This document shows positions 3,774 to 30,974 of a DNA stretch of 64,000 nucleotides, piece after piece (the stretch's first letter is position 1; every line of letters begins with the position of its first letter). The translations under genes were made by a program, and so were the position numbers. Under the pieces are notes generated by a model. It saw only the letters and a list, made by a program, of their open reading frames with translations, was not told the DNA's origin and did no database searches. This stretch comes from Methylomonas sp. LW13. GTDB taxonomy: Bacteria; Pseudomonadota; Gammaproteobacteria; Methylococcales; Methylomonadaceae. The stretch covers positions 1 to 64,000 of the forward strand of contig NZ_CP033381.1 of the NCBI RefSeq assembly GCF_016865255.1, in the 5' to 3' direction.

Positions 3774-6224
<2,451 letters not shown>

Positions 6225-6226
6225 CG

Positions 6227-6294
6227 TGTCGGGTGCCACAATTAGTGAAAAGTGTGCCAAAGTAGTGAAAAATTAGTGACACAAAAAATGAAAA
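6227..6294 (+). repeat. gyrB-proximal transposon end with three tandem TnsB-type sites
   Basis: After the TGTCGGGTG terminus, three related motifs follow on the same strand: GTGCCACAATTAGTGAAAA (6233-6251), GTGCCAAAGTAGTGAAAA (6254-6271) and GTGACACAAAAAATGAAAA (6276-6294). Their starts are 21-22 bp apart, about two helical turns. Tightly packed sites are the hallmark of the Tn7 right end, the end that faces the attachment gene. Inferred role: TnsB binding. Confidence 0.8.
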
Positions 6295-6650
6295 AAACCG
6301 ATTGGCTTTGGTTCTTAGAACCCGAATGGGAGCATGTTTGCAACTGTGGGGGCTGATCGGCAAGACGTTAGCGCTCAACTTGATGTGTTTATAGAAATGA
6401 AAGAGACTGATCGTTATCGATCCGTTGATGCCCTTCGAGCGTGCGTTTAATCAATGAGGGCTTCCAGGTTTGAGCTGTCTTACGAACTGAAAAGCCGATT
6501 GGCAAGTACTTTGTCTAAAGTAGATTAAGAATACATACAGCTTGAATTTAGCTATTACAATTGTGAACGTCCCGTTCTTTAGGACAAATTTGGTATATTG
6601 GCACTGTGTCACTTAGGCTCGTGGGTGACTGATCTGAATTACCGCGACAG
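6295..6650. other. Intergenic leader between transposon end and HNH-NACHT gene
   Basis: About 356 bp without a supported gene. A TATATT hexamer near 6594 could be a -10 element for the downstream gene, but I see no convincing -35 partner. No repeat of the transposon-end motif occurs beyond 6294. Nothing else recognised. Confidence 0.4.
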
Positions 6651-9600
6651 ATGGCCAAAGAAAATAGAGACGAATTTACAGCAAAGATCAAGCAACAGAT
6701 AGCAAAAAGAGCTGGCTGGCTGTGTTCTGATCCGTCATGTCGCCGTCACACCATAGGCTCAAACTCTGATGGTGATGGCGAAATCAATCTCGGAATTGCA
6801 GCGCATATTTGTGCAGCAGCGCCTGGAGGTCCTCGTTACGACCCCACAATGACGCCCGAACAGCGTAAATCTCCGGACAATGGCATATGGATGTGTCAGC
6901 TTCACGGAAAAGCCGTGGATGCGAAAGACTCCACGTTTACCAAAGACCTTCTGCACGAATGGAAGGAAAAGGCACAAAAGGATTCGTGGCTACGCGTTCT
7001 CTACAATCAAGGCGTGCAGCAAGGCTTAGTGGATCAGGGGCTGTCAAAAGACGAGCTAAGCTTCCGTTTTCATGCCGCCGCCGCCGCCGATCTCAACGTT
7101 TTCAAACGATCTTACAAATGGCCATCGACTTCAATTGCACTGACGTTAGAGATTGATGGACTAAACGATCCCGTGAGCACATCGGCTTTAGCTACGGCAC
7201 TTGCAACGTTAGATGATCTTGTCCTTGTCGCACCACCTGGTATGGGGAAAACGACGACACTGTTTCAAATAGCAGAAGCAGTTATTGCCAATAGTCATTC
7301 TGTTCCAATCATTATTCCACTCGGTGACTGGTCAGCTGACGGGGTGTCGCTGCTTGAATCCGTACTTAAGCGTCCTGCATTCTGTGGTATTACAGAAGAT
7401 CAATTGCGCACCGTGGCATCAAAACCTGGCGTAATCCTACTTTTAGACGGTTGGAACGAACTCGACAAAGATTCTCGCAAACGGGCAGCAGTCCAGCTTG
7501 AGCGATTGCAGTTAGAACTGCCCGAAGTGAGCTTGCTTATTTCGACACGTAAACAGGCTCTCGATGTTCCGGTCAATGGCAAACGGGTTAACCTCCTGCC
7601 ACTTGACGAAATGCAGCAGCTTGACATCGCACGGGCAATTCGTGGAGAGGCGGGCGAGCGTATTATCGATCAAGCGTGGCGAACGACTGGTGTACGCGAA
7701 CTCATAACAATCCCTCTATATTTAACTTCACTGTTAGCTCTACCTGAGGAATCGCCATTTCCGGCTACTAAGGAAGAGATTCTTCGTCAATTTATTGGTG
7801 TTCACGAAGATAACAATTATTGCGTCGTAGCGCTCGAGGACGTTACATTTGGCCTCCACCAACGATTTTTGGAAGACCTTGCGGTAACAGCCACGCGAGT
7901 CGCAAATACGACTCTTTCAGAATCCATTGCGCGTAAATCAATTTCCGGAACGGACGACGAGCTCGTGGCCGAAGGACTAATTACTGAAAAGCCCCAGCCA
8001 AACTTGGTGCTGGAGGCGCTGGTCAGCCATCATCTGTTGGTACGAGATAACGTCCTCTCCGGTTATTCGTTCCAGCATCAGCAATTTCTAGAGTGGTATG
8101 GGTCTCATATGGTCGAGCGTCTGATGCTTTTAAGTGTTGGTTGTGAGAAGTCGCTGGAAGCATTGAAGTCGGATGTCCTGAATCTGCCTGTATGGGAGGA
8201 ATCTATTCTCTTCGCGTGTGAGCGATTGGCGCGCGGAGTTCAGCCGCAGTTGGAAGCCTGCTGCTCTGCTATTTTGGAGGCATTCACTGTTGATCCTATT
8301 TTAGCTGCCGAGATGATTTACCGCTCCACTGAGGCAGTTTGGGTGCGTATCGGGCCGACTATTCAAGGCCTTGTCAGGCAGTGGCACAAAACCGGAAAAG
8401 TTGATCGCGCACTTGGCTTTATGATTGCATCAGGCCGCCCTGAATTTCTCGATCAGGTTTGGCCGCTTATCACACACGAGGATGATCAGATCCATCTCTC
8501 TGCATTGCGTCTAGGTAGACGCTTTCGCCCTTCGATTCTAGGAAGCGACGCTGTCAAGCGGCTTACGGAGCTCCCGCCTAAAATTCGGAAAAACGTTCTT
8601 CTCGAAATTGCGTCTAACAGTGGCATGGATGGCCTTGATCTAGTGACCGCCGTTGCTAAATCTGATCCCGACTCAGAAATAAAAGCCGCAGTGGTCAATG
8701 AATTTGCGTGGCGCTGTGCTGATAGACACATTGCTGATGTACTAAAAGGTGCTGACAATAAAACTTTTGACCTTTTGGTGCAAAATGACCTGATTGATAA
8801 TCTAGAAGACGATGCCATCAAGACTAGACTCTCTGCAGCGCGGGAACGGCGGTGCAAAGAAGGCATGAGCGCCTACGATAAGTTGCACTCTCTGGTATAT
8901 GGGCGTGGCGATATCGACCGGAGTACTGAACTAGCGACCGTAATCGCCGAAATTGAAATCGACAATAGGCAGAATGGCACTGTCAATCTTATTCATGAGG
9001 CTGCCAAATGCTTTCCTCGTGCCGTTGCCGCTGGTATCCTTCGTCGTTTACAGGAAGGTCGCACGCTTCCGTACCGCGCATCGGAGCTGATATCCGAATT
9101 AAGTTTAGAGTTTGTTGAAGACAGTGATCTGTGCAAAATTGCGCTTGAAGCAGATTGTATTGATGAGCGCGCAAATGCTGCCGCCTCGGCGCTTAGTACG
9201 AAGTCGGTAGGCCGCATTATCGACAAGATGTTTGATGCCATAAATCAGATTCACGATACTAATGGCAATTATGATAAATCGGTAGCTGATCGCTATCATA
9301 TTCTTCTTAATCGAATCGGGTATACCAAAGCCCCATGCCTTCTTGCGGCGATCGAGGCAAGATCAGCGCAAGCTAACACTCAGAAAATTGTGGCATTGGC
9401 GGATCTAATCTCACGACACCCGCATGGCGAAAATCGTCGGGGTCAGCCGTTTGATTCAGGGGCTCTTGCTACGATTACAGAGTTTATAGAAGATTGGGGC
9501 AATCGATTGTTGGCTTCGGATGATGTGACGCGCAGGCAGCTCGCGTCGATTGCCACGCTTGCCTGTCACGCACCGTCTGCGGCGTTACTACCGTTACTTA

Positions 9601-11000
9601 AGCGACTGTTGGACGAAGAACTCCGACGTTGGCGAGCGTTCAAGGAACAGGCGAAAGTTGATCAGTACCGAGGAGGCTTGGCTACAAACGAAGCACGTTC
9701 GTCTTGGACGCTGCAATATCAGCGTGCGTTCCACGCGATCAATTGTGCAGAGACAAAGGCGCTGATGCGGGAATATTTATTAAACGAAGACTTCGGCTAT
9801 TCAGCTGCATTGGTGCTTGTCGAGCAGTGGCGGGATGTGAATGAACCGAGCGACACCAATATTTGGAAGAGCGGGCCGAATTTCTCACGTGTAACAGAAA
9901 AGCGAGCTGCACGCTTATCAGATCCTTCGGGGTCTTCAGAGGAAGCCGACGCCATTTTCACAGTCATCGAGCAGTTGATAGGAGAGGAGGCGACCGAGAC
10001 AATGAGGAAGCACGCGATAACACTTGCTATCGTGGCTACTGCACTTCCGCACGGCCGGCGAGACGATACCATTAAGGCAATTATCACCTTAGCGGATCGG
10101 CATCAACGCTGCCTACTCCTCACTAATCTCGTTCTCTCCGGCGTGCTACTTGATATAGAACTGATCAAACACGGTATAGCTGAGGTCTTTGAATCTGCTC
10201 AGAAACAACCTTGGATTTTGACAGAACGTTACGAGCTACGAGATTGGCTGAGTTTGTTGCCATTCAGTAATAGCTCAATTGATGCTTTTGACATTGTGCA
10301 AGCGTTACCGAAAGAACACCGCACCTCAGAAGCATTGGAAAAGTTGCTAGACGCGTTAGGGCACGCGCCTGGTGATAACGCGGAGAGCACCCTTTTCCGA
10401 CTCGCCGAGGCTGATCCGTACCTTTACGCGTCTCATGCCTGGCGCAACGCTGTGTCTTGTCGCGGGACGCTTACAGCAATGATGTGCTTTGTAAATTTGG
10501 CCGCACAGGGTGTTTTCAACGGCAAAAGTGGTGAGGATCAATGGCGTATATCTATGCTTTTAGCGGGCTTTATAGGCGAGCAACCTGCATTGCGCTCGTA
10601 CGTCTATGATCTTTTGAGAAACGCCCCTAACTCACCGGGGCTTGTGCTCCTCGCTAAGTCCGTCGCGGAAACCCCCGACGCGGACGGATTGTTGTTACTC
10701 ATCCAAATTGAGATCGAGCAGAAGCGAGCCTTTGTGTCCTGGCGTACGATTGAGCGTATCGTGACTCAGCACGTTCCTACTGAAAACTGGGGAAGCGCTT
10801 ATAACGTTGTGGCTGCGCCTGCCGTCGAACTACGGCGGAAACTGCTAGCCATGACGACTGACGGAGGCCCAGGAGACTCGGCTGCACGTTGCCTGAATAC
10901 GATCGACCAAATCAGGGATGAATACGGTATTCCTGTAACAGAACTACGCCATCCCGATCTGGGTTCAGGCAAGGCATGGCCTATTCTATTAAACCATTAG
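6651..11000 (+). CDS. HNH-like nuclease / NACHT NTPase with long helical C-terminus (probable anti-phage STAND protein)
   Basis: A 1,449-residue multidomain protein. Residues about 20-105 form an HNH-type zinc nuclease domain: C25 and C30, then AAHICAAAPGGPRYD (50-64), N77 and C82-x2-H85. A NACHT/STAND NTPase follows with Walker A APPGMGKTT (194-202) and Walker B ILLLDGWNELD (262-272). The remaining ~900 residues look like helical repeats, the usual sensor part of STAND proteins. Known bacterial Avs and bNACHT proteins use this effector-NTPase-sensor layout to detect phage proteins and then cut DNA. It is the first cargo gene next to the transposon end and reads inwards. No clear Shine-Dalgarno precedes the ATG. 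Defence function is inferred, not shown. Confidence 0.85.
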   Translation: MAKENRDEFTAKIKQQIAKRAGWLCSDPSCRRHTIGSNSDGDGEINLGIAAHICAAAPGGPRYDPTMTPEQRKSPDNGIWMCQLHGKAVDAKDSTFTKDLLHEWKEKAQKDSWLRVLYNQGVQQGLVDQGLSKDELSFRFHAAAAADLNVFKRSYKWPSTSIALTLEIDGLNDPVSTSALATALATLDDLVLVAPPGMGKTTTLFQIAEAVIANSHSVPIIIPLGDWSADGVSLLESVLKRPAFCGITEDQLRTVASKPGVILLLDGWNELDKDSRKRAAVQLERLQLELPEVSLLISTRKQALDVPVNGKRVNLLPLDEMQQLDIARAIRGEAGERIIDQAWRTTGVRELITIPLYLTSLLALPEESPFPATKEEILRQFIGVHEDNNYCVVALEDVTFGLHQRFLEDLAVTATRVANTTLSESIARKSISGTDDELVAEGLITEKPQPNLVLEALVSHHLLVRDNVLSGYSFQHQQFLEWYGSHMVERLMLLSVGCEKSLEALKSDVLNLPVWEESILFACERLARGVQPQLEACCSAILEAFTVDPILAAEMIYRSTEAVWVRIGPTIQGLVRQWHKTGKVDRALGFMIASGRPEFLDQVWPLITHEDDQIHLSALRLGRRFRPSILGSDAVKRLTELPPKIRKNVLLEIASNSGMDGLDLVTAVAKSDPDSEIKAAVVNEFAWRCADRHIADVLKGADNKTFDLLVQNDLIDNLEDDAIKTRLSAARERRCKEGMSAYDKLHSLVYGRGDIDRSTELATVIAEIEIDNRQNGTVNLIHEAAKCFPRAVAAGILRRLQEGRTLPYRASELISELSLEFVEDSDLCKIALEADCIDERANAAASALSTKSVGRIIDKMFDAINQIHDTNGNYDKSVADRYHILLNRIGYTKAPCLLAAIEARSAQANTQKIVALADLISRHPHGENRRGQPFDSGALATITEFIEDWGNRLLASDDVTRRQLASIATLACHAPSAALLPLLKRLLDEELRRWRAFKEQAKVDQYRGGLATNEARSSWTLQYQRAFHAINCAETKALMREYLLNEDFGYSAALVLVEQWRDVNEPSDTNIWKSGPNFSRVTEKRAARLSDPSGSSEEADAIFTVIEQLIGEEATETMRKHAITLAIVATALPHGRRDDTIKAIITLADRHQRCLLLTNLVLSGVLLDIELIKHGIAEVFESAQKQPWILTERYELRDWLSLLPFSNSSIDAFDIVQALPKEHRTSEALEKLLDALGHAPGDNAESTLFRLAEADPYLYASHAWRNAVSCRGTLTAMMCFVNLAAQGVFNGKSGEDQWRISMLLAGFIGEQPALRSYVYDLLRNAPNSPGLVLLAKSVAETPDADGLLLLIQIEIEQKRAFVSWRTIERIVTQHVPTENWGSAYNVVAAPAVELRRKLLAMTTDGGPGDSAARCLNTIDQIRDEYGIPVTELRHPDLGSGKAWPILLNH

Positions 11001-12110: not shown

Positions 12111-12212
12111 ATTGCAGTTCTATTATATTCTTGTATATATAAAATATCGTTGAAAAGTTGAATTTTTTTTATTATTCTCAAATAAAAATAAATTTTCATA
12201 TTCAGTTTAATT

Positions 12213-12635
12213 ATGAGTCCATTTTCTCAATGTTTAGTAGCGCTTCGTACACGTTATGGCATTCGTCAGGGCGAGCTTGCGGCTCTGGTTGGATATGAAC
12301 AGAGCTATATTTCTGCGCTTGAGGTAGGACTTAAAGGGCCGCCGACAGCAGAGCTTGTAGAGCGCATATGCGAAGGGCTGTCGCTTTCAGCTGAAGAAAA
12401 GCAAAGGCTACATGAGGCGCTGTGTGCATCTCAACGAAAATTCACAATTGATGTGGACGCCAGGGAAGACGTTTACTGGATGTTTAGAGATTTGAGGGAA
12501 CAGCTATCGGAGCTATCGGAGGTTCAAGTGCGCATGATTCGTGATGTTGTCCGTTTGAGAGATCCCCAGAACCGTCAGGTATTGAAACCAATACGTAGTG
12601 TTAAGCGTAACAGATTTAAGGAGGCCACCATGTAA
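12213..12635 (+). CDS. XRE-family HTH regulator of the transposition genes
   Basis: A 140-residue protein with a classic HTH_XRE domain in the first 70 residues (TRYGIRQGELAALVGYEQSY, then ISALEVGLKGPP). Tn7-like elements often carry an Xre regulator just before tnsA, where it limits transposition. Two dyads upstream suit autoregulation, and a further dyad (12782-12799) lies between it and the tns genes. Its last codons overlap a strong Shine-Dalgarno (12618-12624) followed by an ATG-TAA start-stop pair at 12630-12635. The gene is separated from the tnsA region by about 240 bp. Confidence 0.85.
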   Translation: MSPFSQCLVALRTRYGIRQGELAALVGYEQSYISALEVGLKGPPTAELVERICEGLSLSAEEKQRLHEALCASQRKFTIDVDAREDVYWMFRDLREQLSELSEVQVRMIRDVVRLRDPQNRQVLKPIRSVKRNRFKEATM

Positions 12636-13103: not shown

Positions 13104-13115
13104 CGGAGACGAGTT

Positions 13116-13838
13116 ATGTCCTCGAATCTTTGGCAAGGGCGCTGGCGTGGTCGTCAACCTGACGGTGACGTCCATAAACGAGCTCGAAATGTCATTACCC
13201 CATCAGGTGGTATCGTTCGCGGTAAATTCCCCAGCCGCAAGAATGGGCGGATGGTCCACCACGAAGGATTGCTAGAACTCGAAGCGATTTATCTGTTCGA
13301 GGCATCTCCCAATATTGTCCGCTATCGTGAACAACCCGTAACCCTTCATTATCCCGATGGCGCTAAATTGCGCCGATATACCCCGGATTTCGAGCTGGTG
13401 TTGACCACCGGCGAAATCGTCCTCATCGAAGTCAAACCGGTCAGTAGCCTTGGTCATGACGATGTGCAGCACAAACTTAATTGTGTCGCTGAGCATATGC
13501 GCAGATCGAAAATGCCCTTCGTTATATTGACCGATGAAGTAATACGGCAAGAGCCACGCTTATCCAATCTTCGCTGGGTACTTCGTCAGGCGCCACGTAT
13601 TCGGCCATCGGCGGATGCCATGACGGTCGCCATCAATAAACTTCGCGACTGCCTTCCTGCATCGCTTGCAGAGGTTACAGCTTTAACAACGGACAGTAGC
13701 GTTGACCTTTACTGTTTGCTTTTGGCGGGATCTTTACGCTGTTCTCTGGACCAGCCTATCTCGGACGATACCCGAATTGAATTGAAATTGGAGGCAGACA
13801 ATGACTGGTTTTGCGTTGCGCAAGAATATGGTTTTTGA
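13116..13838 (+). CDS. tnsA: TnsA-like transposon endonuclease
   Basis: TnsA cuts the 5' ends of the element so that, together with TnsB, transposition is cut-and-paste. The 240-residue protein has a restriction-like core: Glu54 in GLLELEAIY, Asp91 in YTPDFEL and the ExK motif Glu105-Val-Lys107 in IVLIEVKP. These correspond to the Tn7 TnsA triad (E63, D114, K132). A GGAG ribosome site lies seven bases before the ATG. The 3' end overlaps tnsB by 38 bp, typical of a tightly coupled tns operon. Presence of tnsA separates this element from Tn5053-type elements, which lack it. Confidence 0.93.
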   Translation: MSSNLWQGRWRGRQPDGDVHKRARNVITPSGGIVRGKFPSRKNGRMVHHEGLLELEAIYLFEASPNIVRYREQPVTLHYPDGAKLRRYTPDFELVLTTGEIVLIEVKPVSSLGHDDVQHKLNCVAEHMRRSKMPFVILTDEVIRQEPRLSNLRWVLRQAPRIRPSADAMTVAINKLRDCLPASLAEVTALTTDSSVDLYCLLLAGSLRCSLDQPISDDTRIELKLEADNDWFCVAQEYGF

Positions 13839-18159: not shown

Positions 18160-20000
18160 TTGCCGTGAACGATTATTGTGCTTTACCTGTGCGTCCGCGT
18201 CCGATCAATGGCGAGGCTACCCTGGGTTTTTTGATGCGCGTTGCACGGGCAAACGGTTACGAATCGCTGCGGCAGTTAGGCAACACATTTCGAAACTTTG
18301 AAGGCCTATGCCAAGCGCTTGGCTTATCCGCTGAGGAAAGACAGGCATTGTTTGGACCCCATCCAAGTTTTTGGGGACCAAGCGCATTGTCGAATGGGCT
18401 GACTGCCATCGACTTTAACCATAGTCAAATGCGCTGGTGTCCGCTCTGCCTTCGCGAGTCGGCACATCTAAGGGGTCCATGGCTGCTGAAAATCAGCTGT
18501 ATTTGCAACCGGCATTCAATCCGTTTACATGAGCGATGCCCAAGTTGCGGCAGTACTCAGCGGCTAGAACGGGTTTAACTTGAACAATGCGCTTGTGGAG
18601 CGCGGCTTGCCGATGCCCGAGGTACCGATCGGGTCGATGAGCCACTGCTTTCACTAAGCCGTGCTATTCAGGCGGCAATGAAAGGCAAGTCGGCATTGGC
18701 GGGTTTTCCTGCCATGTCACTGCCGGAATGGATTCGATTGATTGGTTATCTAGGGCAGTACTCGGAATCCTTCCAACCCGCCAAACCGGGGAAGATTGCG
18801 AATTTACACCAACTGGATACTGCAACCACGCTGATGCTGCAAGTGAGTCGGCTATTGGATGGCTGGCCGGAAAACTTTCACGCCCTATTGAGCACTCTAC
18901 ATCAGCAAGCAGACAGTCAATCCAGTATTCGGAGGACTTTCGGGTCATTCTATAGGACTTTATACACGGACTTGTCCGGTGAATGTTTTCAATTCCTGCG
19001 CGACGCATTCGAGGGCTATTTGCACGAGCATTGGTCAGGGATAGTCAATAAACGCCACCGAGCGTTTAAGCTAGAGACGATTGCCAGACATCCCCGCGTG
19101 ACCTTGAAACAAGCCGCCAAAAAAGCCGGCGTGGCACCGTCAACTGTTCGACATTTCATTCGAGCCAAGGTGATCGCTGGGAATCAGATTGAATTGCCGT
19201 CCGGTCGAAAGATGCGTTCAGTCGATGAACAGAGCTTTGCTGAAATAGCGATTCTGGCAAAGGGATGTGTCACGCTTGATCAAGCTGCCAAACAACTGGT
19301 GTTACCGAAGAGCCGGGTCAGAGAATTAATAGCGGATGGCGTCTTAAAGCCGTTGGTCTCAAGAATGCACGGCAATGCCACCGCTTGGCTAATTCCGAAG
19401 CAGCAAGTGCAAGCATTGTTTTTCACCGGCACAGAAGTGATGCATTCGCCACCGACAATAAACGTCAGATATATATTGAAATATTGGCATCTGCGCGAAG
19501 GGGAATTCATCGCACTGGTTCGTGCGCTTTTGGGTAACCAATTAAAACCAGTGGGCAAGCTGAATGAGTCAGTGCCATTGGGAAACATCCAGCTTGATGA
19601 GCAACAAACTTGGCAGTGGCTGGCGGAAATGCGCTACGCCGACGGTGCCAGTGTTTCTGTCGACCAGGCAGCGAAGAGACTAGGCTTGAAACAACAAGTG
19701 GTATACGACTTGGTAAGGCTGAGGTTACTGACGACTATCCAAGATCATCTTCCTGGTCGGCGAGTCACGCAAGTAAGCCTCGACGATTTTCAAGCCACCT
19801 ATGTATCTTTGGCTGAATATGCCAAGTCAGAAAAACGGGCGCCGCGATGCCTGCTACAAGCATTGCAAGTAAAGCCGGTTTCGGGGCCTATGATCGATGG
19901 TAGCCGGCAATATTTTTTTCGTCGGTCTGACCTATATGGTGAATTGAGTGGCAATGGAGCCAGTTTGATTGCCCCGTCCTCCCCAAATGAAATGGAGTAG
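18156..20000 (+). pseudogene. TniQ/TnsD-family target selector 2, interrupted by an in-frame TAA
   Basis: The frame from ATG 18156 (overlapping the previous stop) through 20000 encodes one TniQ protein of about 614 residues, except that codon 141 is TAA (18576-18578). The stop falls inside the zinc finger, between RCPSCGSTQRLERV and LEQCACGARLADA. Downstream, the same frame contains three HTH-like segments (VTLKQAAKKAGVAPSTVRHF, VTLDQAAKQLVLPKSRVREL, VSVDQAAKRLGLKQQVVYDL), good candidates for sequence-specific recognition of an attachment site. The second half could restart at ATG 18678. A recent nonsense mutation fits best, since both halves are otherwise open; a sequencing error is possible. 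Confidence 0.8.
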
Positions 20001-20740: not shown

Positions 20741-22477
20741 ATGACAAACCGACTGCCCCAGAAAGCGTCCTCGACTATATCGATGCTCCAGGATCTTGCG
20801 AAGTTGGCAAACTATTCTCTCATGGACACGCTCAACTGTGACCCTGACGCGACAAAATACGGTGACGACCACGCGCCGCGACAAGTCTTTACGGGACATT
20901 ATGTCCCCGTCAAGCCGACTCCAATCATAGACCCTGAGTATGTAGCTCACAGCAAAAATTTTTTTTCCGAGCTTGGCCTTGCCGACAGCATGGCAGAGTG
21001 CTCCGATTTCGTCCGCATGTTCTCCGGTGACATCTCTCAGGTTCCAGAGCCGATGCGCAAGGTTGGTTGGGCGACTGGGTACGCACTTTCCATCTACGGC
21101 ACTGAATACATTCAGCAGTGTCCGTTCCAAACTGGCAACGGATATGGAGACGGTCGTGCAATTTCTGTGCTTGAGGCCGTCATCGACGGTCGACGCTGGG
21201 AGATGCAGCTGAAAGGTGGCGGTCGCACGCCATATTGCCGTGGCGCAGACGGTCGCGCTGTCTTGCGGTCAAGTATCCGCGAGTTCTTGGCTCAGGAGCA
21301 CATGCACGCACTGGGCGTGCCGACATCGCGGTCTTTGAGTTTGTATGTTTCAAAAACGGAGAAGGTAAAGCGACCGTGGTACTCGGAGGGTTCGCGCTCG
21401 GAGAATCCTGACATGCTTATATCTGAGGCTGTCGCCATATCGACTCGCGTCGCGCCGTCGTTCATTCGCGTCGGCCAACTTGAACTATTCGCTCGCCGTA
21501 CTCGAAAAAACGAACACCCAAAAGCGCTGGAAGAACTGGCGAAGATTGTACTGCACTTGATTGATCGCGAGTACGCTGACGTGGTCAATAAGCAACTCAC
21601 AACTCCCGATAAATTGCTGTTGTTGGCGCGCGCGTTTCGTAGCCGCCTCACGTCACTGGTGGCGAACTGGATCCGCGTCGGCTTCTGCCAGGGCAACTTC
21701 AACAGCGACAACTGTGCAGTCGGAGGTTTTACACTTGATTATGGCCCCTTCGGCTTTTGCGATGTGTTTAACCCCCATTACCAACCTTGGACGGGAGGCG
21801 GTCATCACTTCTCGTTCCTGAATCAACCAAGCGCAGCGCAACGCAATTTCGATATGTTTTGTTCGGCGTTGCGGCCGTTGCTGGCATCGCATCAGGACTA
21901 TTTGCTAGAGCTCGACGAGATTCAAAGTGGATTCTCGAAAGTTATGGAAGCGCAAATGGAAAATATGTGGGCCGCCAAGCTGGGTCTTAGTACTTTGAAA
22001 ACAGCGTCTCATAAGGCATTTTGCAGCGCACTAATCAGCGAGCTTGGCACACTCATGATGCAAACGCCTGTCGATTACACTATTTTCTTCCGCGAGCTCT
22101 CGTCGATACCCGACGACATTGGCCCACTCAAGAAAAGCTTCTACAATGACGCGGCGCATGATACTAACCCCAAAGAGTTAGATAAGCGTTGGGCAGCGTG
22201 GCTCGCGAAATGGAAAACACTTCTCAGCAGTTCCAGTGAGGAAACCTCTAGGCAGATGAAGCTTGTAAACCCAAAGTACATTTTGCGAGAGTGGTTTGTT
22301 GTGCCGGCATATCAGCAAGCAGCTGTGGGAAATTATTCTCTAATTCGAGAACTTCAGGACGTGATGACGCAGCCCTATGAAGAGCAGTCGAAGGACGTGG
22401 AAGATAAATACTATCGGTTGAAACCGCCTGAGTTCTTTGAGGTGGGTGGATTGTCCCACCTTAGTTGCTCGTCGTGA
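20741..22477 (+). CDS. selO: SelO/YdiU-family protein adenylyltransferase
   Basis: SelO is a pseudokinase-fold enzyme that transfers AMP to Ser/Thr/Tyr of target proteins. The 578-residue protein has the family blocks [37 protein letters not shown], the metal/catalytic NSDN segment ([12 protein letters not shown]) and [13 protein letters not shown]. The usual HG before N-x-DN is QG here. It is longer than E. coli YdiU (478), mainly through a C-terminal extension. SelO is normally a core housekeeping gene, so its presence as transposon cargo is unusual. It has its own gap of 490 bp upstream and is probably transcribed alone. Confidence 0.88.
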
Positions 22478-23038: not shown

Positions 23039-23040
23039 TG

Positions 23041-23832
23041 TTAAACAACTTTCACAGTCCGGCATTTAGGATAGCCACTACATCCCCAAAATTGATTGCC
23101 TTGGTTGTCTCCGGTTTTAGCGGTTCTTAGGATCATCGGTTTTCCGCATTTAGGACAGGCGTTTTCAGGTTGCTGCTGCTTTTGCTCAACAATGGTCTTA
23201 ACATGTCTGACATGCTCTATATGGGTTTTGATAGAGGGCTTTAGACGACCCGCTTGGATTTTGCGGCACACCACCGCGATCTCGCTTTCGCTCAATAGGC
23301 GCTGTTGTTTACTTTTGATAAAGCGAATGTAACCACCGGCATAGACGACATTCTCTGGCATGGGCGTTTTAAACTCACTATCACCGACAAACACTACTAA
23401 CGAAAAAAGTTTGCTAGGTTCAATCTCCAATGCCGATTGCAGCGTCTGCGTGTGCTTATAGTTTTGATGCAAGGGATTTTGGAACTGGTTTTTGTGCTTG
23501 TATATTTGCTGCGTCCACATCTTTTGCTGCGCACTACCAAATATCCAACCTTTTAAATTCTTGGTTTCAATGACGAAAATGCCATATGGCGATACGATCA
23601 CATGATCCACCTGCGTCGAACCGTCTTCCGTGGGCAGCGTGACGTTTTTGAATAAGCGATAGATGTTTTTATCCAGAAACAACGCGGCCGCCAAGTTGAC
23701 TAAGGCTTCTCCGATGACACCTTTCATGAACGGTGTTTTCAACAAGCCGATGACGATCAACAAGACAAACAGCCATCCATAGCTTGCTATCATAGGCGCA
23801 AACGCTTGTAACAGAATTTGGTTAATATCCAT
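23041..23832 (-). CDS. NERD-domain protein with topoisomerase-type zinc finger
   Basis: A 263-residue protein with one N-terminal membrane segment (YGWLFVLLIVIGLL), a NERD (nuclease-related) domain with GEALVN and QVDHVIVSPYGIFVIETKN (the D...ExK-like nuclease core), and a C-terminal topoisomerase-I-type zinc finger CPKCGKPM...FWGCSGYPKC. Such proteins are widespread in accessory regions and presumed to act on DNA at the membrane; the exact role is unknown. It is convergent with mazE and divergent from the SRAP gene, which starts 66 bp away. Confidence 0.85.
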   Translation of the reverse strand: MDINQILLQAFAPMIASYGWLFVLLIVIGLLKTPFMKGVIGEALVNLAAALFLDKNIYRLFKNVTLPTEDGSTQVDHVIVSPYGIFVIETKNLKGWIFGSAQQKMWTQQIYKHKNQFQNPLHQNYKHTQTLQSALEIEPSKLFSLVVFVGDSEFKTPMPENVVYAGGYIRFIKSKQQRLLSESEIAVVCRKIQAGRLKPSIKTHIEHVRHVKTIVEQKQQQPENACPKCGKPMILRTAKTGDNQGNQFWGCSGYPKCRTVKVV

Positions 23833-23898
23833 TTAATGAGTCCAATGGTGGGTTTAATCGTTATGGGTCTTACGAACCACAGGTAAGGAATGGTCGGT

Positions 23899-24552
23899 AT
23901 GTGCGGTCGCTACAACCTCACGGCAACGCCGGAAAGCATAGCTGAACATTTTGAGTTACCACGCTTGCCGAGCTTTCAACCCAGCTACAACATCACTCCC
24001 GCACAAAAAATCCTTTGCATCGTTCAGCTAGACGACCAATCATTAAAATCGGTAAACCTGTTTTGGGGCTTAGTGCCATCCTGGTCTAAAGACGATAAAA
24101 ACAGCCATCACCTGATCAACGCCCGTGCTGAAACCATCAGAGAAAAACCCAGTTTTCGGGCTGCCTTTCATAAGCGCCGCTGCTTAATCGTCGCAAACGG
24201 ATTTTATGAGTGGCAGAAATTGGCATCGCACAAACAAGCGTTTCATATCCATCGTCAAGACAATCAGTTATTTGCCTTTGCTGGACTCTGGGAACATTGG
24301 GAGCACGATGCGAAAACGCTCTATTCCTGCACCATCATCACGACCGCTGCAACGACACTGATGCGACCGATTCATGAGCGTATGCCGGTTATCATACCAA
24401 TAGCCCATTACCGGGATTGGTTGGATAAATCAGCAGGGGAAGATGACGTGTTTCGACTCCTGGATAATCATGCTTACGCTGATATGACTACAACACCGAT
24501 TAGCGATTATGTGAATAATCCAACGCATGATGACGAGCGGTGCTTAAATTGA
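23899..24552 (+). CDS. SRAP (YedK/HMCES-type) abasic-site protein
   Basis: SRAP proteins form a thiazolidine crosslink to abasic sites in single-stranded DNA through the N-terminal Cys. I start at ATG 23899 because the catalytic Cys must be residue 2 (MCGRYNL) and AAGGA lies ten bases upstream; the ATG at 23890 would add three residues and block the active site. Other family blocks: LINARAETIREKPSFR, GFYEWQK (catalytic Glu) and PIHERMPVII (catalytic His). The 217-residue length is normal. It sits beside a NERD gene in the cargo, suggesting a DNA-maintenance function. Confidence 0.93.
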   Translation: MCGRYNLTATPESIAEHFELPRLPSFQPSYNITPAQKILCIVQLDDQSLKSVNLFWGLVPSWSKDDKNSHHLINARAETIREKPSFRAAFHKRRCLIVANGFYEWQKLASHKQAFHIHRQDNQLFAFAGLWEHWEHDAKTLYSCTIITTAATTLMRPIHERMPVIIPIAHYRDWLDKSAGEDDVFRLLDNHAYADMTTTPISDYVNNPTHDDERCLN

Positions 24553-24649
24553 ATGTGGATATGTCCTTGCGAAGGTGTTGAAGTAGCGATTTGTAATTGG
24601 ACGGCATTTGACTAGGCTAGTTAATCCAATAATGGCAAATTACTAGGCT

Positions 24650-25240
24650 ATGGAAACTGAAAGAGGCAAACTGGTTCGTTGGATAGACGATAAAGGATTT
24701 GGATTCATAAAATCGGAGTCAGGCGGTACCGATATTTTTATCCACATATCGGCGTTAAGAACCATGAGTCGGCCGCCTGTTGTCGGTGACATTATTTTTT
24801 ACGAAACAAGCCTTGATGATAAAGGCAAGCTACGCGCAATCAACGCAAAAATTGACGGAGTTTCTCAGGTTTTAACGGTTGCTCCAATAGACAGGAAGCC
24901 CAGAACACAAAAAACTGGCGCTCCGCAGCAAAGACTCCCCAGAAGTTTCAACACCTATAGGCCACCGTATAAGAAATCTGGATATAGATTTATTACAGTG
25001 CTGCTTGTGGTTGCTGGAGTTTCGATCCTCAGCAAGTTTGGTAATCAAAATGTAACTACTGGTCAGCCAGTATTACCAATAGCTGAACCACCAAAACCGA
25101 CTCAGAATTTCCAGTGTCTCGGCAAGGTGCATTGCTCGGAAATGACCTCGTATGAAGAAGCCGAATTTTATCTACAAAATTGCCCTGGCACGAAGATGGA
25201 TGGTGACAATGACGGCATTCCTTGCGAACAACAGTTCTAG
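24650..25240 (+). CDS. Cold-shock domain / membrane / Excalibur-domain protein
   Basis: Residues 1-70 are a cold-shock domain (RGKLVRWIDDKGFGFIKSES, then IFIHISAL), expected to bind single-stranded nucleic acid. A linker rich in Pro and basic residues leads to one membrane helix (FITVLLVVAGVSILSKF), and the C-terminus is an Excalibur calcium-binding-type motif with conserved Cys (CPGTKMDGDNDGIPCE). CSD-membrane-Excalibur fusions are known from many proteobacteria, but their function is unclear. The gene stands alone with about 97 bp upstream. Confidence 0.85.
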   Translation: METERGKLVRWIDDKGFGFIKSESGGTDIFIHISALRTMSRPPVVGDIIFYETSLDDKGKLRAINAKIDGVSQVLTVAPIDRKPRTQKTGAPQQRLPRSFNTYRPPYKKSGYRFITVLLVVAGVSILSKFGNQNVTTGQPVLPIAEPPKPTQNFQCLGKVHCSEMTSYEEAEFYLQNCPGTKMDGDNDGIPCEQQF

Positions 25241-25295
25241 CTCATAGAAAGCTAGGCGCTTCGCATATTCGTGGCTAAATGACGGGGGGATACGC

Positions 25296-27114: not shown

Positions 27115-27897
27115 ATGAATTCCACTGCGCTTGGGACGTGGCGTAATCCGCCGCTCGTCTATGTTGTCGCGGAACTTGCCATCTCCCCCTACTACTCAAT
27201 GAGCAACAAGGTTCCTGGACTTCAGGATAGCCTAAGAAACACATTTCCTCGAACGGTTGAAGCTAAAGAGCTAATTGTCGATGGGGTCAAACCCACTCCA
27301 CAGCCCTTATGGCAACTGTTGTCAGCTGATCAAAAACTCGGTGTCCAATTGGGTACTCGCGCGATCTCGTTGCATGCAACGAGCTATGTTCAATCGAGTG
27401 ATTTCTTAAGTCGTTGGGCTGAGGTGTTGGACGCCATTCAAAATGCCAGCCTTGGGGCATTCGTCGAGCGAGCAGGATTGAGATATATTGACTTGATTGT
27501 TCCGTCCACGGACCATTCTCCAGCTGACTATTTAGCAGATGGACTAAAAGGTATTGAACCGGAAGGAGCTCGCTCTAAAGGCTCCATGTGGGCTGCAGCG
27601 TTTCAGTTTGACGGAAGTTTGGTAAATCTTCGCGCGGCTGCGCCTGCACCACAGGGCCTCTTGTTGCCGCCGGATTTCAATGCACTACCGCTAAACAAGC
27701 CAGTAAAAATGCACGAAGCTGAGAAACACATCCAGAACGGACAGACGATAGGATTCGTCGATACTGACTGCCTCAAGGAGATCGGGCAAGTATTTGATGC
27801 AGGAGAACTTTTGGGGATTTATACGGAAATGCAAAAACTGACATCGAGAACTTTCAAGGCCTCACTATCTAATACTGCGAAAGGAGAATGGATGTGA
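27115..27897 (+). CDS. TIGR04255-family protein
   Basis: A 260-residue protein with the features of the sporadically distributed TIGR04255 family: NPPLVYVVAELAISPYYSM near the start, VPGLQDSLRNTFPR, and the central VERAGLRYIDLIVPS block. The family's biochemical role is unknown; it is scattered across genomes, often near HTH proteins. An AAGGAG ribosome site precedes the ATG. Its stop overlaps the next gene by 10 bp, so the pair is translationally coupled, and a third gene follows at once. Confidence 0.8.
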   Translation: MNSTALGTWRNPPLVYVVAELAISPYYSMSNKVPGLQDSLRNTFPRTVEAKELIVDGVKPTPQPLWQLLSADQKLGVQLGTRAISLHATSYVQSSDFLSRWAEVLDAIQNASLGAFVERAGLRYIDLIVPSTDHSPADYLADGLKGIEPEGARSKGSMWAAAFQFDGSLVNLRAAAPAPQGLLLPPDFNALPLNKPVKMHEAEKHIQNGQTIGFVDTDCLKEIGQVFDAGELLGIYTEMQKLTSRTFKASLSNTAKGEWM

Positions 27898-28703
27898 ACA
27901 ACACAATAGAGACACGCCAATACACAGCTTGCCAAGCAACACTGTTGCAGCAGCGGCCTAGCGATATTATTTCTGCTGTTGAAAACACGGTAGAAACATT
28001 CGTGGCGTCCCATTCTGGAAGGGTTCAGGTAGTTTACTCTGACGATCAGGCTCAAGCTTTAGCTTCAAGCGTTGCAGGTCTTCACAACTTGGGAAAAGGG
28101 TTTGGTAAGGCTCTGACCGCCGGCACTGTGGCATATGTTCTCAGCGTTTCTTCGCCAACGAACGCACCCGAGTTGTTCACTGCTCCGGACGAGATCCCTC
28201 GCGAGAATGCTTGGAGCCGCTGGTCGGAACAAGCCAAAGAGGCTCTGCAGAACGCAGCGTTGAAGGAACTGCACCCTTCGACAGCAGTCGCTCGCCTTCG
28301 AGTTGATCGCCTCGCAACGCTCCAAGCGGCTTTCGGATTTACGACTCAGGATATGGCATCAGTCCTTGGTATTTCGCGACAACAGCTTTATAAGTGGCTT
28401 GATGCTGCCAATCCGATACAAATTCAAGAGGCGGGTCGTGTGCGTCTATCGATAGTAGAACGTATTGCGAAAGAATGGATGTCACGATCTAAAGTACCAC
28501 TCAGTTCGGTAAGTCGTGAAAATGTGGCGGGAGGAAGTTCCGTACTCTCCATGATGACTGCGGATATCATGGACGAAACCGTAATTGTGGGTAGCTTTGA
28601 TGAACTATTGGCCAAGCTTCAGACAAAACCCAAAACACGTAGCCAGCGGCTTCGCGAGGCCGGGTTTACCCGACGAACATCCTCTCTTCCTTTGGACGAC
28701 TAA
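27888..28703 (+). CDS. HTH protein partner of the TIGR04255 operon
   Basis: A 271-residue protein. Residues about 144-172 form a helix-turn-helix (LQAAFGFTTQDMASVLGISR, then QQLYKWLD) in a context resembling MbcA/ParS-type antitoxins, followed by helical sequence and a basic C-terminus (TKPKTRSQRLREAGF). The N-terminal 140 residues show no recognised domain. It overlaps the upstream gene by 10 bp and ends 11 bp before the third gene. It could be the operon's regulator or an antitoxin-like component; neither is shown. Confidence 0.65.
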   Translation: MDVNNTIETRQYTACQATLLQQRPSDIISAVENTVETFVASHSGRVQVVYSDDQAQALASSVAGLHNLGKGFGKALTAGTVAYVLSVSSPTNAPELFTAPDEIPRENAWSRWSEQAKEALQNAALKELHPSTAVARLRVDRLATLQAAFGFTTQDMASVLGISRQQLYKWLDAANPIQIQEAGRVRLSIVERIAKEWMSRSKVPLSSVSRENVAGGSSVLSMMTADIMDETVIVGSFDELLAKLQTKPKTRSQRLREAGFTRRTSSLPLDD

Positions 28704-28714
28704 GAGGGCTTTCC

Positions 28715-29545
28715 TTGGCATTTGGTGATGATATTACTCTGCGTGGGTGGCGTACTGGGTCCGTGATATCAGTTGAAATGCTTACTCTGCTCCAACCCCA
28801 CTTAACAAGGCACGATCAGCAATCGACATTAGTTGCGACGGATGATTGGCTTGTAGTTATTTCGCAAACTTGCGACATCGTCGCTCCGAAATTAGAGGCA
28901 GAACCATTAGTAGAATTGCTGCTTTGCAAGCCCATTTCAGGCAAACCTCGCAAAGGCCAACGCAACCTGGAGTCAACCCGTTATCTCGATTTTCGCCCAA
29001 ATCGGGAAACACACCCTGACATTGTTTTATCAGCACACGCAGTAGCAGATCGTCATGTAATCCCGCGCGATTTGCTCACAACCAATGAGCCCGATAGAGT
29101 TCGTTGGTTAGACCATATTTCATCTCAAAGGATATTGGCATGGTATGCGCTTCGCGCAGGACGCCCATCATGGCCAAATAACTTATGTGATCGTATTCGA
29201 AATGCAACGGGGGCCCTAAAAGATGCGCTTGATCTTGATCTGTTCGCCAACGATAAATCCGAAGTAAGAGTTGCTATCGCGGAAAAGGACCAAGAGCTCG
29301 AAAATGGCGAGTCATATCATTTAGCCGTTTACTTTGTGGTCGATGAAGACACCTGGAATGGTGATAGTGACGATCGAAAAGCCATCAACATAGCATTTGC
29401 AAAATTTGTCTCTGAACTAGATGCTTGCGAAGGGATAGATGTAAATCAAGATTTGAGTGGAGTCGTACCTGGAAATGAGTTTAGCTGGCAGGAAACTCAG
29501 CAGACTGATCAATGGAACTTCGCGAATCTGAGCCATCGGGATTAA
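28715..29545 (+). CDS. Unknown protein with SQTCDIV motif, third gene of the operon
   Basis: A 276-residue protein starting with TTG at 28715; an AGAGGG ribosome site at 28703-28708 supports this start. The most distinctive part is DDWLVVISQTCDIVAPKLEA followed by EPLVELLLCKPI, then an HVIPRDLL block. The C-terminal half is acidic. I do not recognise a known fold, although the SQTCDI block looks like a family signature. Spacing of 11 bp after the HTH gene indicates one transcript. Possibly the effector of a three-gene system, by inference from operon layout only. Confidence 0.6.
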   Translation: MAFGDDITLRGWRTGSVISVEMLTLLQPHLTRHDQQSTLVATDDWLVVISQTCDIVAPKLEAEPLVELLLCKPISGKPRKGQRNLESTRYLDFRPNRETHPDIVLSAHAVADRHVIPRDLLTTNEPDRVRWLDHISSQRILAWYALRAGRPSWPNNLCDRIRNATGALKDALDLDLFANDKSEVRVAIAEKDQELENGESYHLAVYFVVDEDTWNGDSDDRKAINIAFAKFVSELDACEGIDVNQDLSGVVPGNEFSWQETQQTDQWNFANLSHRD

Positions 29546-29713
29546 TCTAAATGACAACAACTCACAAACCCCTCGTTGTCCTAAGGTGTTACGGACTTGA
29601 GTTATAACCGGTGTTAATATCGTTTCAAGGGCCTGATCGACTTCGTGATAATTGAAAAAAACGATAAATATTTTAATTAGGTGAACTTTTGTAACTTTTA
29701 CGAGGCAATCAAA

Positions 29714-30082
29714 ATGAAGCTTTACAAGGCGATTATTATGATAATACTGGTTTGCTTTGCAAACGGCTCATATTCTGGTGGATTATTCGGTAACGATGGC
29801 TTTTTCCAAAAACAGATAATAGATCCCTTTCGTGGCAAAGATCGTTCTCCGTCACCACCACCTGGCTCTGTTGTTATTAATCCAGGAAACCAATACGTTC
29901 CGAGTGTCTCAGAACCCCCAAATAATTTGCCAAACACGCAGCCTATAACTCAAATGCCCCAGTACAGTAGTAGATGCCAAACAAATATTGGTAGTTGCAT
30001 TTTAAACTCAGTTGGTCCTGTTGGAAGTAGCTGTTGGTGTAATGCGGGTTACAATCAAATAAATGGAGTTCTTTTACCATGA
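29714..30082 (+). CDS. Small secreted Pro- and Cys-rich protein
   Basis: A 122-residue protein with a signal peptide (MKLYKAIIMIILVCFANGSY) and a Pro/Ser/Asn-rich middle followed by four Cys in RCQTNIGSCILNSVG and SSCWCNAGYNQ. ATG 29714 is chosen over an in-frame ATG at 29681 because it starts the signal peptide. Its stop overlaps the next gene by four bases (ATGA). Unknown family; the AT-rich DNA differs from the neighbouring cargo, pointing to a separate acquisition. Confidence 0.6.
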   Translation: MKLYKAIIMIILVCFANGSYSGGLFGNDGFFQKQIIDPFRGKDRSPSPPPGSVVINPGNQYVPSVSEPPNNLPNTQPITQMPQYSSRCQTNIGSCILNSVGPVGSSCWCNAGYNQINGVLLP

Positions 30083-30732
30083 ATGTAGATACCGCAATAT
30101 CATTGTCGAAAAAAACAAGCGCCTTTTTTTGTGTGGCGCTTATACTTTTATTCGTGTTCGATATTGCATCTGCGGCATCTGGTAAACCCTCAAACGATAC
30201 CGTCAAAACCGAAAAAATCACATTAACAGGAGGAGGAGGGTTCGAATCTATTCAACAAAACCATCAGATTGAAAGCTCACTTCGTGAGCAAATAGTCGAA
30301 ATGAGTAACACTATAAAACGATTAAATTCTGAAGAGGATAAAGCACGTATCCAAGCCCAGATAAAATATTACGAATATCTTAATAAAAAGGCTGAAATTA
30401 ACTTATCTCAATATAGGTGGCAACAAACAGCCTCTAATTATCTACTTTTTCTCGTTATGGTAGTGGTTTTATCTGGTATTTTCTTCTCTGGCTATCAAAT
30501 ATGGAAGTCGTCAAGCATTAAGGATATTTCGTCTGATTCCACAATAGAGCTTTCAATACAAAAAATAAAGGTAACTTCCTCAGTTGTAGGGGTTATTGTT
30601 TTAGCGATATCTATTGTTTTTCTGTATTTCTTTTTGATTGAGGTATATAGAATTAAAGTTGTCGATATGTCTAAATCTGAGATGGAAAGCTATTATACGG
30701 ACAAAAAACAAGCTGTTACTGAGTCACGCTAA
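30079..30732 (+). CDS. Membrane protein with coiled coil, partner of the secreted protein
   Basis: A 217-residue protein: an N-terminal hydrophobic segment ending in a probable signal cleavage region (ALILLFVFDIASAAS), a polar helical stretch (about residues 55-110, likely coiled coil) and two membrane helices (NYLLFLVMVVVLSGIFFSGY; VGVIVLAISIVFLYFFLI). It overlaps the preceding gene by four bases, so both are probably made together and may act together in the envelope. No family recognised. It ends about 100 bp before the transposon's distal repeats. Confidence 0.6.
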   Translation: MNVDTAISLSKKTSAFFCVALILLFVFDIASAASGKPSNDTVKTEKITLTGGGGFESIQQNHQIESSLREQIVEMSNTIKRLNSEEDKARIQAQIKYYEYLNKKAEINLSQYRWQQTASNYLLFLVMVVVLSGIFFSGYQIWKSSSIKDISSDSTIELSIQKIKVTSSVVGVIVLAISIVFLYFFLIEVYRIKVVDMSKSEMESYYTDKKQAVTESR

Positions 30733-30836
30733 CAAGGCAAATCAAAATGAATGTTCGCTGCCCTACGTGCCGCTTATTAGCGTTGTTAACGGCAGCTTTT
30801 GGCCGAACTTGCTTTATCAGAAGATGGGTTCGAAGT

Positions 30837-30969
30837 TTTTCAATATTAGTGGCACAAAATCTGGAATATTTCATTATTTGTGTCAAATGTGGGTTTTGTG
30901 TGTGACACAAATAATGAAATATCTTTTTAAAATCAACGGACCATTTTTCACTAATTATGTCACCCGACA
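30837..30969 (-). repeat. gyrB-distal transposon end with four spaced TnsB-type sites
   Basis: Reading inwards from 30969, the end begins TGTCGGGTG. Four copies of the same motif as at the other end are seen: 30945-30963 (minus), 30902-30920 (plus), 30868-30886 (minus) and 30837-30855 (minus). Spacing is wide and one copy is inverted, creating a perfect 19-bp inverted repeat, 30867-30885 against 30903-30921, with a 17-bp loop. Widely spaced sites match the left-end design of Tn7; the inverted copy is unusual. Confidence 0.8.
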
Positions 30970-30974
30970 TAACG
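30970..30974 (+). repeat. Target site duplication, right copy (TAACG)
   Basis: Identical to 6222-6226 and directly adjacent to the CACCCGACA terminus. The next base starts the GTG codon of the MntA-like gene, so in the uninterrupted ancestor gyrB TAA and this GTG were two bases apart. Confidence 0.92.

Follow-up and report, generated by a model that had tools for sequence, protein, structure and literature searches.

Tn7 carries the genes tnsABCDE and has its attachment site, attTn7, at glmS. Tn7-like elements with attachment genes of their own have also been described, among them Tn6022/AbaR (comM), Tn6230 (yhiN) and the tRNA-targeting I-B2 and I-D elements (accessible parts of PMC11406308 and PMC10293859). 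In Tn7017 (EasCAST), a type I-F3 CAST with two TniQ proteins, TniQ directs insertion beside parE (accessible part of PMC11406308). The Tn7-like element analyzed here lies at the 3' end of gyrB. This gene belongs to the gene order dnaA-dnaN-recF-gyrB. The Tn7-like transposon of Pseudomonas putida HB3267 is given as B479_00025-B479_00140 in the accessible part of PMC4731212, where gyrB is not named as its site; the low locus tags, taken together with the above gene order, suggest that it directly follows gyrB. The accessible parts of PMC12452197, PMC4731212, PMC7031236, PMC5088629 and PMC2936356 mention no attachment site at gyrB, and no description of gyrB as a Tn7-like attachment site was found in the literature searched, i.e., main texts, with only a minority of subscription papers.

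The window, i.e., the whole stretch of 64,000 nucleotides that was analyzed, comes from Methylomonas sp. LW13 (NZ_CP033381.1), in which gyrB adjoins dnaA. It contains a Tn7-like element of 24,743 bp (6227-30969), delimited by the following features:

3807..6224, + strand: gyrB, the host gene whose 3' end is the attachment site (Pfam DNA_gyraseB, GyrB_insert, DNA_gyraseB_C)
6222..6226, no strand: TAACG target-site duplication, gyrB side, containing the gyrB stop codon
6227..6293, + strand: gyrB-proximal end (Tn7 right-end-like), TnsB-site-like repeats 11, 31, 42 and 54 from the terminus
30820..30969, - strand: distal end (Tn7 left-end-like), TnsB-site-like repeats, spread
30970..30974, no strand: TAACG target-site duplication, far side
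30975..31265, + strand: native gene after gyrB, MntA-like nucleotidyltransferase (Pfam NTP_transf_2 8.3e-9; empty-site relatives G009, G021 and G029)

The terminus TGTCGGGTG starts at 6227 and its reverse complement stops at 30969, each adjoined by one copy of the 5-bp TAACG; thus, the matching termini and identical duplications of the initial annotation were both located where it had placed them. Its statement that the duplication holds the gyrB stop and leaves gyrB unharmed is also correct (TAA, 6222-6224), and the mntA-like native gene beyond the far side is likewise intact. The ORF 30957-31265 only appears to start within the element: the native start is GTG at 30975, because empty-site relatives show the gene beginning right past the duplication. 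Allowing up to 3 mismatches, a 25-base end pattern had three matches in the genome (5.23 Mb), the two element ends and an orphan at 1480816, and the reversed-pattern control had 0. Four TnsB-site-like repeats are packed into the first 67 bp on the gyrB side, compared to a spread across ~130 bp at the far end, so that the dense end faces gyrB, as annotated and as in Tn7. The layout is the same in the relative G014, including all four gyrB-side repeats, and in G035 except for the repeat at 42. Asymmetric ends with several such repeats and 5-bp target duplications (TAACG in the window, GTTGT and AAACA in two relatives) are characteristic of Tn7-like elements, and the end anatomy fits Tn7.

The transposition genes of the element are as follows:

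12213..12635, + strand: XRE-type HTH regulator, 140 codons, upstream of tnsA
13116..13838, + strand: tnsA, endonuclease subunit (Pfam Tn7_TnsA-like_N 2.6e-11, above cut-off)
13801..15789, + strand: tnsB, DDE transposase (Pfam Mu-transpos_C 2e-8, above cut-off; rve below its cut-off)
15803..16777, + strand: tnsC, AAA+ regulator (Pfam TniB 1.2e-26)
16771..18159, + strand: tniQ1, 462 aa, variable among relatives (Pfam TniQ 4.1e-15)
18138..20000, + strand: tniQ2, homolog of the single TniQ in many gyrB elements, probable gyrB selector (Pfam TniQ; in-frame stop at codon 147)

The components that define Tn7-like elements, TnsA, TnsB with a Mu C-terminal domain, TnsC/TniB and TniQ, are all present by Pfam, although tniQ is two genes and not the one of the initial annotation. 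Calling the element complete holds for its ends and tnsABC but not for tniQ2, whose frame has one in-frame stop; relatives have intact copies of ~600 codons, the TniQ2 of the Methylomonas methanica element L113 is also intact, and in G035 the gene is split. A 140-codon ORF, matched by length only, occupies the place of the regulator in five relatives. Residues D265, D270, D352 and E388 of TnsB are invariant in 10 aligned sequences, the window TnsB among them.

The element resembles Tn7 in having TnsA, TnsB, TnsC and a TniQ-family protein, a dense end beside the attachment gene, a 5-bp duplication, tns genes on the attachment-gene side, and entry in one orientation just beyond the 3' end of an essential gene. 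It differs from Tn7 proper, which inserts at glmS, in its attachment gene, gyrB; in a short, TniB-like TnsC of 324 aa; in a TnsB that is nearer to I-F3 TnsB than to Tn7 TnsB (PDB profiles, 5e-109 for the I-F3 TnsAB fusion and 3.9e-33 for Tn7 TnsB, 7pik); in that no TnsE was recognized among the scanned ORFs; and in a TniQ2 tail that is modelled as winged-helix repeats. In Tn7017, the targeted parE is a gyrB paralog, and both elements have two TniQ proteins, whereas the window element sits at gyrB and lacks the Cas effector genes of a CAST: Pfam detected no Cas families in 18 element ORFs, a scan with smaller ORFs and CRISPR arrays outside its range. Attachment genes and selectors of Tn6022/AbaR, Tn6230 and the I-B2/I-D elements differ from those of the window element, and insertion of Tn6022/AbaR inactivates comM, whereas insertion at gyrB does not inactivate gyrB.

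The cargo comprises:

6651..11000, + strand: HNH-NACHT-NCAB2 protein, probable anti-phage defence (Pfam NCAB2 1.3e-28; NACHT 1.5e-5, just below cut-off; N-terminal HNH-type effector matches by PADLOC)
20741..22477, + strand: SelO-like protein adenylyltransferase (Pfam SelO 4.3e-69)
23041..23832, - strand: NERD nuclease-domain protein (Pfam NERD 1.2e-31)
23890..24552, + strand: SRAP protein (Pfam SRAP 5.4e-73)
24650..25240, + strand: protein with cold-shock and Excalibur domains
27115..29545, + strand: three-gene cluster of a TIGR04255 family protein, a weak HTH match and an unknown

Since this island carries a probable defence gene, the gyrB site is a place to seek new ones.

The annotated role of the gyrB 3' end as attachment site was borne out when related genomes were searched. 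Among 34 readable Methylomonas gyrB 3' ends, 21 have a transposon end of type A or B within 60 bp of gyrB (control, 2/1,256 blocks) and 13 have neither type; the two types are distantly related and occur at the same spot. In three genomes (G009, G021 and G029), the site is empty and the native gene comes straight after gyrB. Relatives scattered over unrelated sites and never at gyrB, the pattern that the initial annotation had set against its own reading, were not what we found: gyrB and tnsA follow each other on one strand in 6/6 genomes of the genus with gyrB and a TnsABC relative in the fetched stretch. The exact 5-bp duplications are TAACG, GTTGT and AAACA in three Methylomonas elements (G000, G014 and G035), at slightly different offsets; because both differ, these are separate insertions and not one that was inherited. 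Directly beyond the far end and its duplication, G014 and G035 have an older end of type B, i.e., a newer element is stacked ahead of an older one. TnsB matches were detected in 14/61 relatives and in 25/201 genomes of the family. They include weaker, mostly partial matches elsewhere on chromosomes (~27-38% identity in the 61-relative search). Of the few such sites inspected, G013 has two TnsB halves behind gyrB on the gyrB strand; in G086, TnsB follows gyrB at a distance of 6.8 kb, likewise on the gyrB strand; and in G063, a TnsB fragment is on a different contig from gyrB. Reading by eye, we also noted islands without a recognizable Tn7-like end directly behind gyrB, for example one with a DndC-like gene in G061, a genome of the same species, and one with a methylase-like gene in G006.

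Across bacteria, 317 named TnsB relatives were found, and the location of the best 80 was examined: 48 are downstream of gyrB, 21 are elsewhere and 11 are undecidable. The 48 cases come from alpha-, beta- and gammaproteobacteria with 30 genus labels ("unassigned" counted as one), and TnsB relatives of 53-57% identity are at gyrB in distant hosts. Since relatives in many bacteria occupy the same spot, a large transposon lineage appears to use gyrB as its dedicated landing site. All 48 have one orientation, and the end begins 2-14 bp past the gyrB stop in 44/47 junctions, in agreement with the annotated directed, non-random insertion; a regular expression detected end-like motifs no more than 30 bp from the stop in 45/47 junctions (44 without the false call L162), compared to 564/6,600 random 30-mers. 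Duplications were detected in 4/33 named windows, many of which end short of the far end, versus 0-2/33 with wrong 5-mers in ten trials, a weak signal. TnsB relatives occur in 648 plasmid records, none at 60% identity or above, and in 4 phage records, all below 60%.

Insertion sites cluster on the TnsB tree, with 5 changes among 74 labelled rows, and most of the 21 non-gyrB relatives among the best 80 fall in sister clades, placed at their genes comparably to the gyrB elements. The sites of non-gyrB loci were read from the sequence that follows the closest gene upstream: sister lineages lie behind nrdB and behind a lysS-like gene, and another probably lies behind msrB; L143, L144, L168, L171, L180, L184 and L190 are among the loci left unplaced. 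L187 has a ribonucleotide reductase small-chain gene upstream, with no end seen behind that gene. A self-repeat score for end-like motifs in non-gyrB loci was noisy and was set aside. Because 21/80 relatives are elsewhere, the site is not determined by the transposase alone.

The probable selector is TniQ2. Among 38 gyrB loci over 18 kb, a single TniQ, homologous to TniQ2 and 591-663 aa long, occurs in 20, and two TniQ proteins occur in 16. On the TniQ2 tree sites also cluster, with 3 changes among 52 rows. The only non-gyrB row in the 33-row TnsB clade of the window, L130, has a truncated TniQ2 of 307 aa that lacks the C-terminal half. The structure model of a relative's TniQ2 (pLDDT 90.1) has repeated winged-helix units in residues 318-599; TniQ2 is thus modelled as a TniQ core with about five winged-helix repeats, a tail that may bind gyrB codons. 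TniQ1 is short and poorly conserved in several gyrB elements, with 82% identity in G014 and 26-37% across the aligned region in G027, G035 and G025. Since tniQ2 is interrupted, the window copy has probably lost the capacity to home without a helper copy.

We are confident that a Tn7-like lineage without recognized Cas genes homes to the gyrB 3' end, with TnsD-like TniQ2 as its putative selector. By analogy with Tn7, the order of events would be cut-and-paste: TniQ2 would read the final gyrB codons with its winged-helix tail and recruit TnsC, which would bring TnsA and TnsB with the excised element. The element would then be joined a few bp beyond the gyrB stop, with its dense end facing gyrB; this would create a 5-bp duplication, keep the stop codon and leave the gene behind gyrB whole. 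Newcomers would insert between gyrB and earlier residents and, therefore, islands would accumulate behind gyrB. The siting might instead be directed by something other than TniQ2, namely TniQ1, a guide RNA, or TnsC acting together with a host factor, as the window copy has an interrupted tniQ2, the gene is split in G035, and two-TniQ elements are common (16/38). Conversely, a TniQ2 homolog is the only TniQ in 20/38 gyrB loci, several gyrB elements have a short, poorly conserved TniQ1, and Pfam detected no Cas family in the 18 element ORFs scanned; we consider this explanation unlikely.

It is less plausible still that the region behind gyrB merely tolerates insertions, as a hot spot close to the replication origin where elements land by chance or because they favor replicating DNA, and persist because they are harmless. 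The islands of G061 and G006 seen by eye would suit such a site, but a single orientation in 48/48 named cases, offsets of 2-14 bp in 44/47 junctions, two distantly related end types at one spot, and comparable placement of sister clades at other genes argue against it. Vertical inheritance of a single ancestral insertion that has since decayed, the shared site reflecting history and not active targeting, would agree with a site widely common to the genus. We give it almost no credence, since duplications and offsets differ between elements, three species have empty sites and a same-species genome lacks the element, newer elements lie ahead of older ones, and TnsB relatives of 53-57% identity sit at gyrB in distant hosts.

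Homing of this lineage to gyrB explains the recurring island hot spot, because gyrB is conserved, essential and, in LW13, beside dnaA. In hosts where glmS is unsuitable, large inserts could also be placed harmlessly at the gyrB 3' end, and the winged-helix tail of TniQ2 and the related nrdB and lysS-like selectors form a natural series for deriving rules of protein-guided target choice. A broader proposal, to which we give even chances, is that in a large Tn7-like branch TniQ tails of tandem winged-helix modules act as a retargetable DNA reader, with sub-branches reading the 3' codons of different conserved genes (gyrB in the group with the most members; nrdB, lysS and, probably, msrB in sister clades), and gyrB a major site of island stacking. 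Synonymous conservation of the gyrB 3' end was considered as a selector footprint and rejected: in 30 genomes, the last 20 codons score 0.122 versus a mean of 0.114 over 260 codons, and other gyrB stretches score higher. A few codons at the extreme 3' end are well conserved.

The Tn7-like element spans 24,743 bp of the window sequence between two copies of TAACG, and both of its termini read inward as TGTCGGGTG. The features to which the following analysis refers are:

6222-6226: near TAACG copy; its first three bases are the gyrB stop codon
6227-30969: the element; its genes, starting at the gyrB side, are HNH-NACHT-NCAB2 cargo, XRE regulator, tnsA, tnsB, tnsC, tniQ1, tniQ2 and cargo (SelO, NERD nuclease, SRAP, cold-shock/Excalibur, TIGR04255 cluster)
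18138-20000: tniQ2 frame, with a single in-frame stop at codon 147
30970-30974: far TAACG copy
31265-35035: region holding an apparently truncated HEPN-like gene and the Olokun pair (OloA, OloB)

The matching termini, the identical duplications and the presence of the gyrB stop codon in one of them had been described in the initial annotation, and all are borne out. The same holds for the tightly packed end facing gyrB, where four TnsB-site-like repeats lie within 67 bp, versus about 130 bp for the repeats of the far end, some of which are inverted. The repeat positions are matched in the related genome G014 and, minus one gyrB-side repeat, in G035. The description of a complete tnsA-tnsB-tnsC-tniQ element holds for both ends and for tnsABC; however, there are two tniQ genes, and the second carries the in-frame stop. 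This stop is either a sequencing error or a sign of recent decay, and the window copy itself is probably crippled in its selector gene. Intact tniQ2 copies are found in G014 (601 aa), G027 (632 aa) and the Methylomonas methanica element (G025/L113, 599 aa). About 1.3 kb of other sequence splits the G035 copy, and the G028 contig stops short of it. A search of the 5.23-Mb genome for the 25-base end pattern, allowing up to three mismatches, gives the two element ends and one orphan site. Two orphan type-A-like ends (resembling those in the window) were noted at 1480840 (-) and 1462236 (-), 18.6 kb apart on the same strand; the 38-kb stretch containing them gave no tblastn match to the window tns proteins, and by eye conjugation-like genes lie near the first.

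The gene to the right of the element, encoding an MntA-like nucleotidyltransferase, starts immediately past the far duplication. In three relatives (G009, G021, G029), this gene lies within a few bases of the gyrB stop, and its product begins with MKPSEAL in the two that were fully read. Because the mntA-like gene begins right after the duplication, and follows gyrB directly in these empty sites, the insertion split two neighbors and broke neither; the proposed entry without harm to gyrB, the stop codon of which is kept in the near TAACG, thus extends to the next gene. Farther right, mntA is followed in the empty-site relatives by a HEPN-like partner, which in the window appears by eye to end prematurely; next comes the Olokun pair (PADLOC, 4.9e-90 and 4.6e-163). 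Homologs of this pair lie directly behind tniQ2 in G025, and therefore the window pair may be old transposon cargo.

Comparison of gyrB 3' ends across Methylomonas, the host genus, as the initial annotation had proposed, was possible in 34 of 37 genomes. An end of type A or of the distantly related type B lies within 60 bp of the gyrB stop in 21 of the 34, compared to 2 of 1,256 for the same test on downstream 60-bp blocks and their reverse complements. Among the 13 genomes with neither end, three are the empty sites, where mntA comes immediately after gyrB. The element is missing from G061, a genome of the same species; by eye, a DndC-like gene directly follows its gyrB, so that other islands, too, seem to use the site, and searching a 35-kb stretch of this genome gave no mntA start motif. 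All six stretches that include gyrB together with a TnsABC relative (G014, G027, G035, G028, G034, G024) run from gyrB to tnsA on one strand; two G025 contigs with TnsABC carry no gyrB. Three type-A elements have exact duplications (TAACG, GTTGT, AAACA) at slightly different offsets, and therefore represent separate insertions; for G014 and G035, the script gave two candidate duplications each, and the one with the matching end motif was taken. In these two genomes, a type-B end directly follows the far end with its duplication, showing that a newer element has inserted ahead of an older one, on its gyrB side. Two TnsB lineages follow one another behind gyrB in Methylobacter tundripaludum, and another genome of the family (G086) has TnsB 6.8 kb behind gyrB. 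The closest named TnsB relative, on a Candidatus Methylobacter oryzae contig (L111), has four TniQ-domain ORFs in series (217, 407, 461 and 602 aa), a pattern resembling the fusion or stacking of two elements.

A named scan extending beyond the genus yielded 317 TnsB relatives, and the best 80 of them were retained. Far from being scattered over unrelated sites and never found at gyrB, 48 of these 80 lie downstream of it: 33 carry gyrB in their upstream flank, without exception on the same strand; in 14 more, gyrB and tnsB share contig and strand, with gyrB 10.6 to 38.1 kb upstream; and the 48th is the G034 element (L156). Contig ends make 11 undecidable, and 21 lie elsewhere, including L167 and L172, which were assigned by identity to L164/L165 and L171, without their own gyrB search; true gyrB was not found in the genomes of L171 and L180. 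Twelve of the 14 contig-level cases were re-read at the gyrB 3' end (the gyrB of L133 is frame-shifted, and L124 shares its gyrB with L158), and a TGT-type terminus lies just past the stop in 11, L188 being unclear. Two additional Chromobacterium copies have such a terminus. A simple end pattern is found within 30 bp of the gyrB stop in 44 of 47 junctions, at offsets of 2-14 bp, against a background of 564 matches in 6,600 random 30-mers. A 45th match, L162, was a false call, the real end being 61 bp on; L175 and L188 have no match in this interval. The hosts are alpha-, beta- and gammaproteobacteria. Insertion at gyrB, proposed to be directed and not random, is real, directed and widespread.

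We infer that TniQ2 is most likely the gyrB reader, from several lines of evidence. In quick trees without bootstraps, gyrB versus other sites requires five changes among 74 labelled rows for TnsB, and three among 52 rows for TniQ2. Among the 38 gyrB loci with over 18 kb of sequence, a single TniQ, a TniQ2 homolog of 591-663 aa, is encoded in 20; 16 have two, one has three and one has none. TniQ2 is more conserved than TniQ1 in G027, G035 and G025, and similarly conserved in G014 (82% for TniQ1, 81-90% for TniQ2). The only non-gyrB row in the window's 33-row TnsB clade, L130 from Chitinimonas, encodes a 307-aa TniQ2 stopping before the C-terminal half, a single case. Modelled with AlphaFold from a 44-row alignment, the M. 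methanica TniQ2 (pLDDT 90.1, pTM 0.76) has a TniQ core, and its residues 318-599 contain a strand-helix-helix-strand unit that, as we read the secondary structure, is repeated about five times. Foldseek searches with this model placed I-F3 TniQ proteins at the top (9gs9_I, 9.4e-7), with a TnsD chain (8v32_J) at 1.5e-3; phage Xis and MerR-type proteins matched single units with poor E-values.

The window element has all Tn7-like transposon features tested; Tn7 proper uses glmS, whereas this element is at gyrB, and thus it is not Tn7 proper. Its TnsB has I-F3 TnsB as the nearest profile match, and no Cas family was found by Pfam among 18 element ORFs scanned. A TniQ targeting parE is known from the I-F3 element Tn7017 (PMC11406308). 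The words "gyrB" and "gyrase" do not occur in the main text of PMC10293859, PMC8649781 or PMC11406308, and none of the literature searched, supplements excluded, was found to describe gyrB as an attachment site for Tn7-like elements. PMC4731212 reports a Tn7-like transposon at B479_00025-B479_00140 of P. putida HB3267, and the low locus tags place it probably right behind gyrB; a gyrB-sited element may therefore already be in print without its site being named. We conclude that the element is of a known kind and that gyrB is new as its attachment site.

Some of the relatives located elsewhere point to sister sites. Three with identical TnsB (L164, L165, L167, at about 9165-9190; hosts Halothiobacillus and Guyparkeria) have their transposon end 12, 13 or 20 bp past a gene whose terminal sequence is alike in all three; by Pfam, the gene before L164 encodes the ribonucleotide reductase small chain, making nrdB a probable second attachment gene. 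In four others (L149, L150, L153, L154, at about 8450-8670; hosts Aquitalea, Chromobacterium and a Neisseriaceae MAG), the transposon end lies 19-25 bp past a gene for a class II tRNA synthetase (Pfam tRNA-synt_2) that looks to us like lysS, a probable third. A SelR-domain gene (msrB) directly precedes the element in L145, L147, L159 and L177 (Chromobacterium, Vogesella; about 8510-8660); L159 has no clear end-like motif behind this gene, and in L145, L147 and L177 the distance from it to an end-like TGTAGG is 12, 7 and 2 bp, respectively. Related selectors therefore seem to use the 3' ends of conserved genes. Within Methylomonas, a GyrB-like gene (41%), probably parE, is followed about 1.2 kb farther on the same strand by a distant TnsB (29%; G013:C1:963644-968095, L019), and the locus possibly represents a Tn7-like element of this genus sited at parE.
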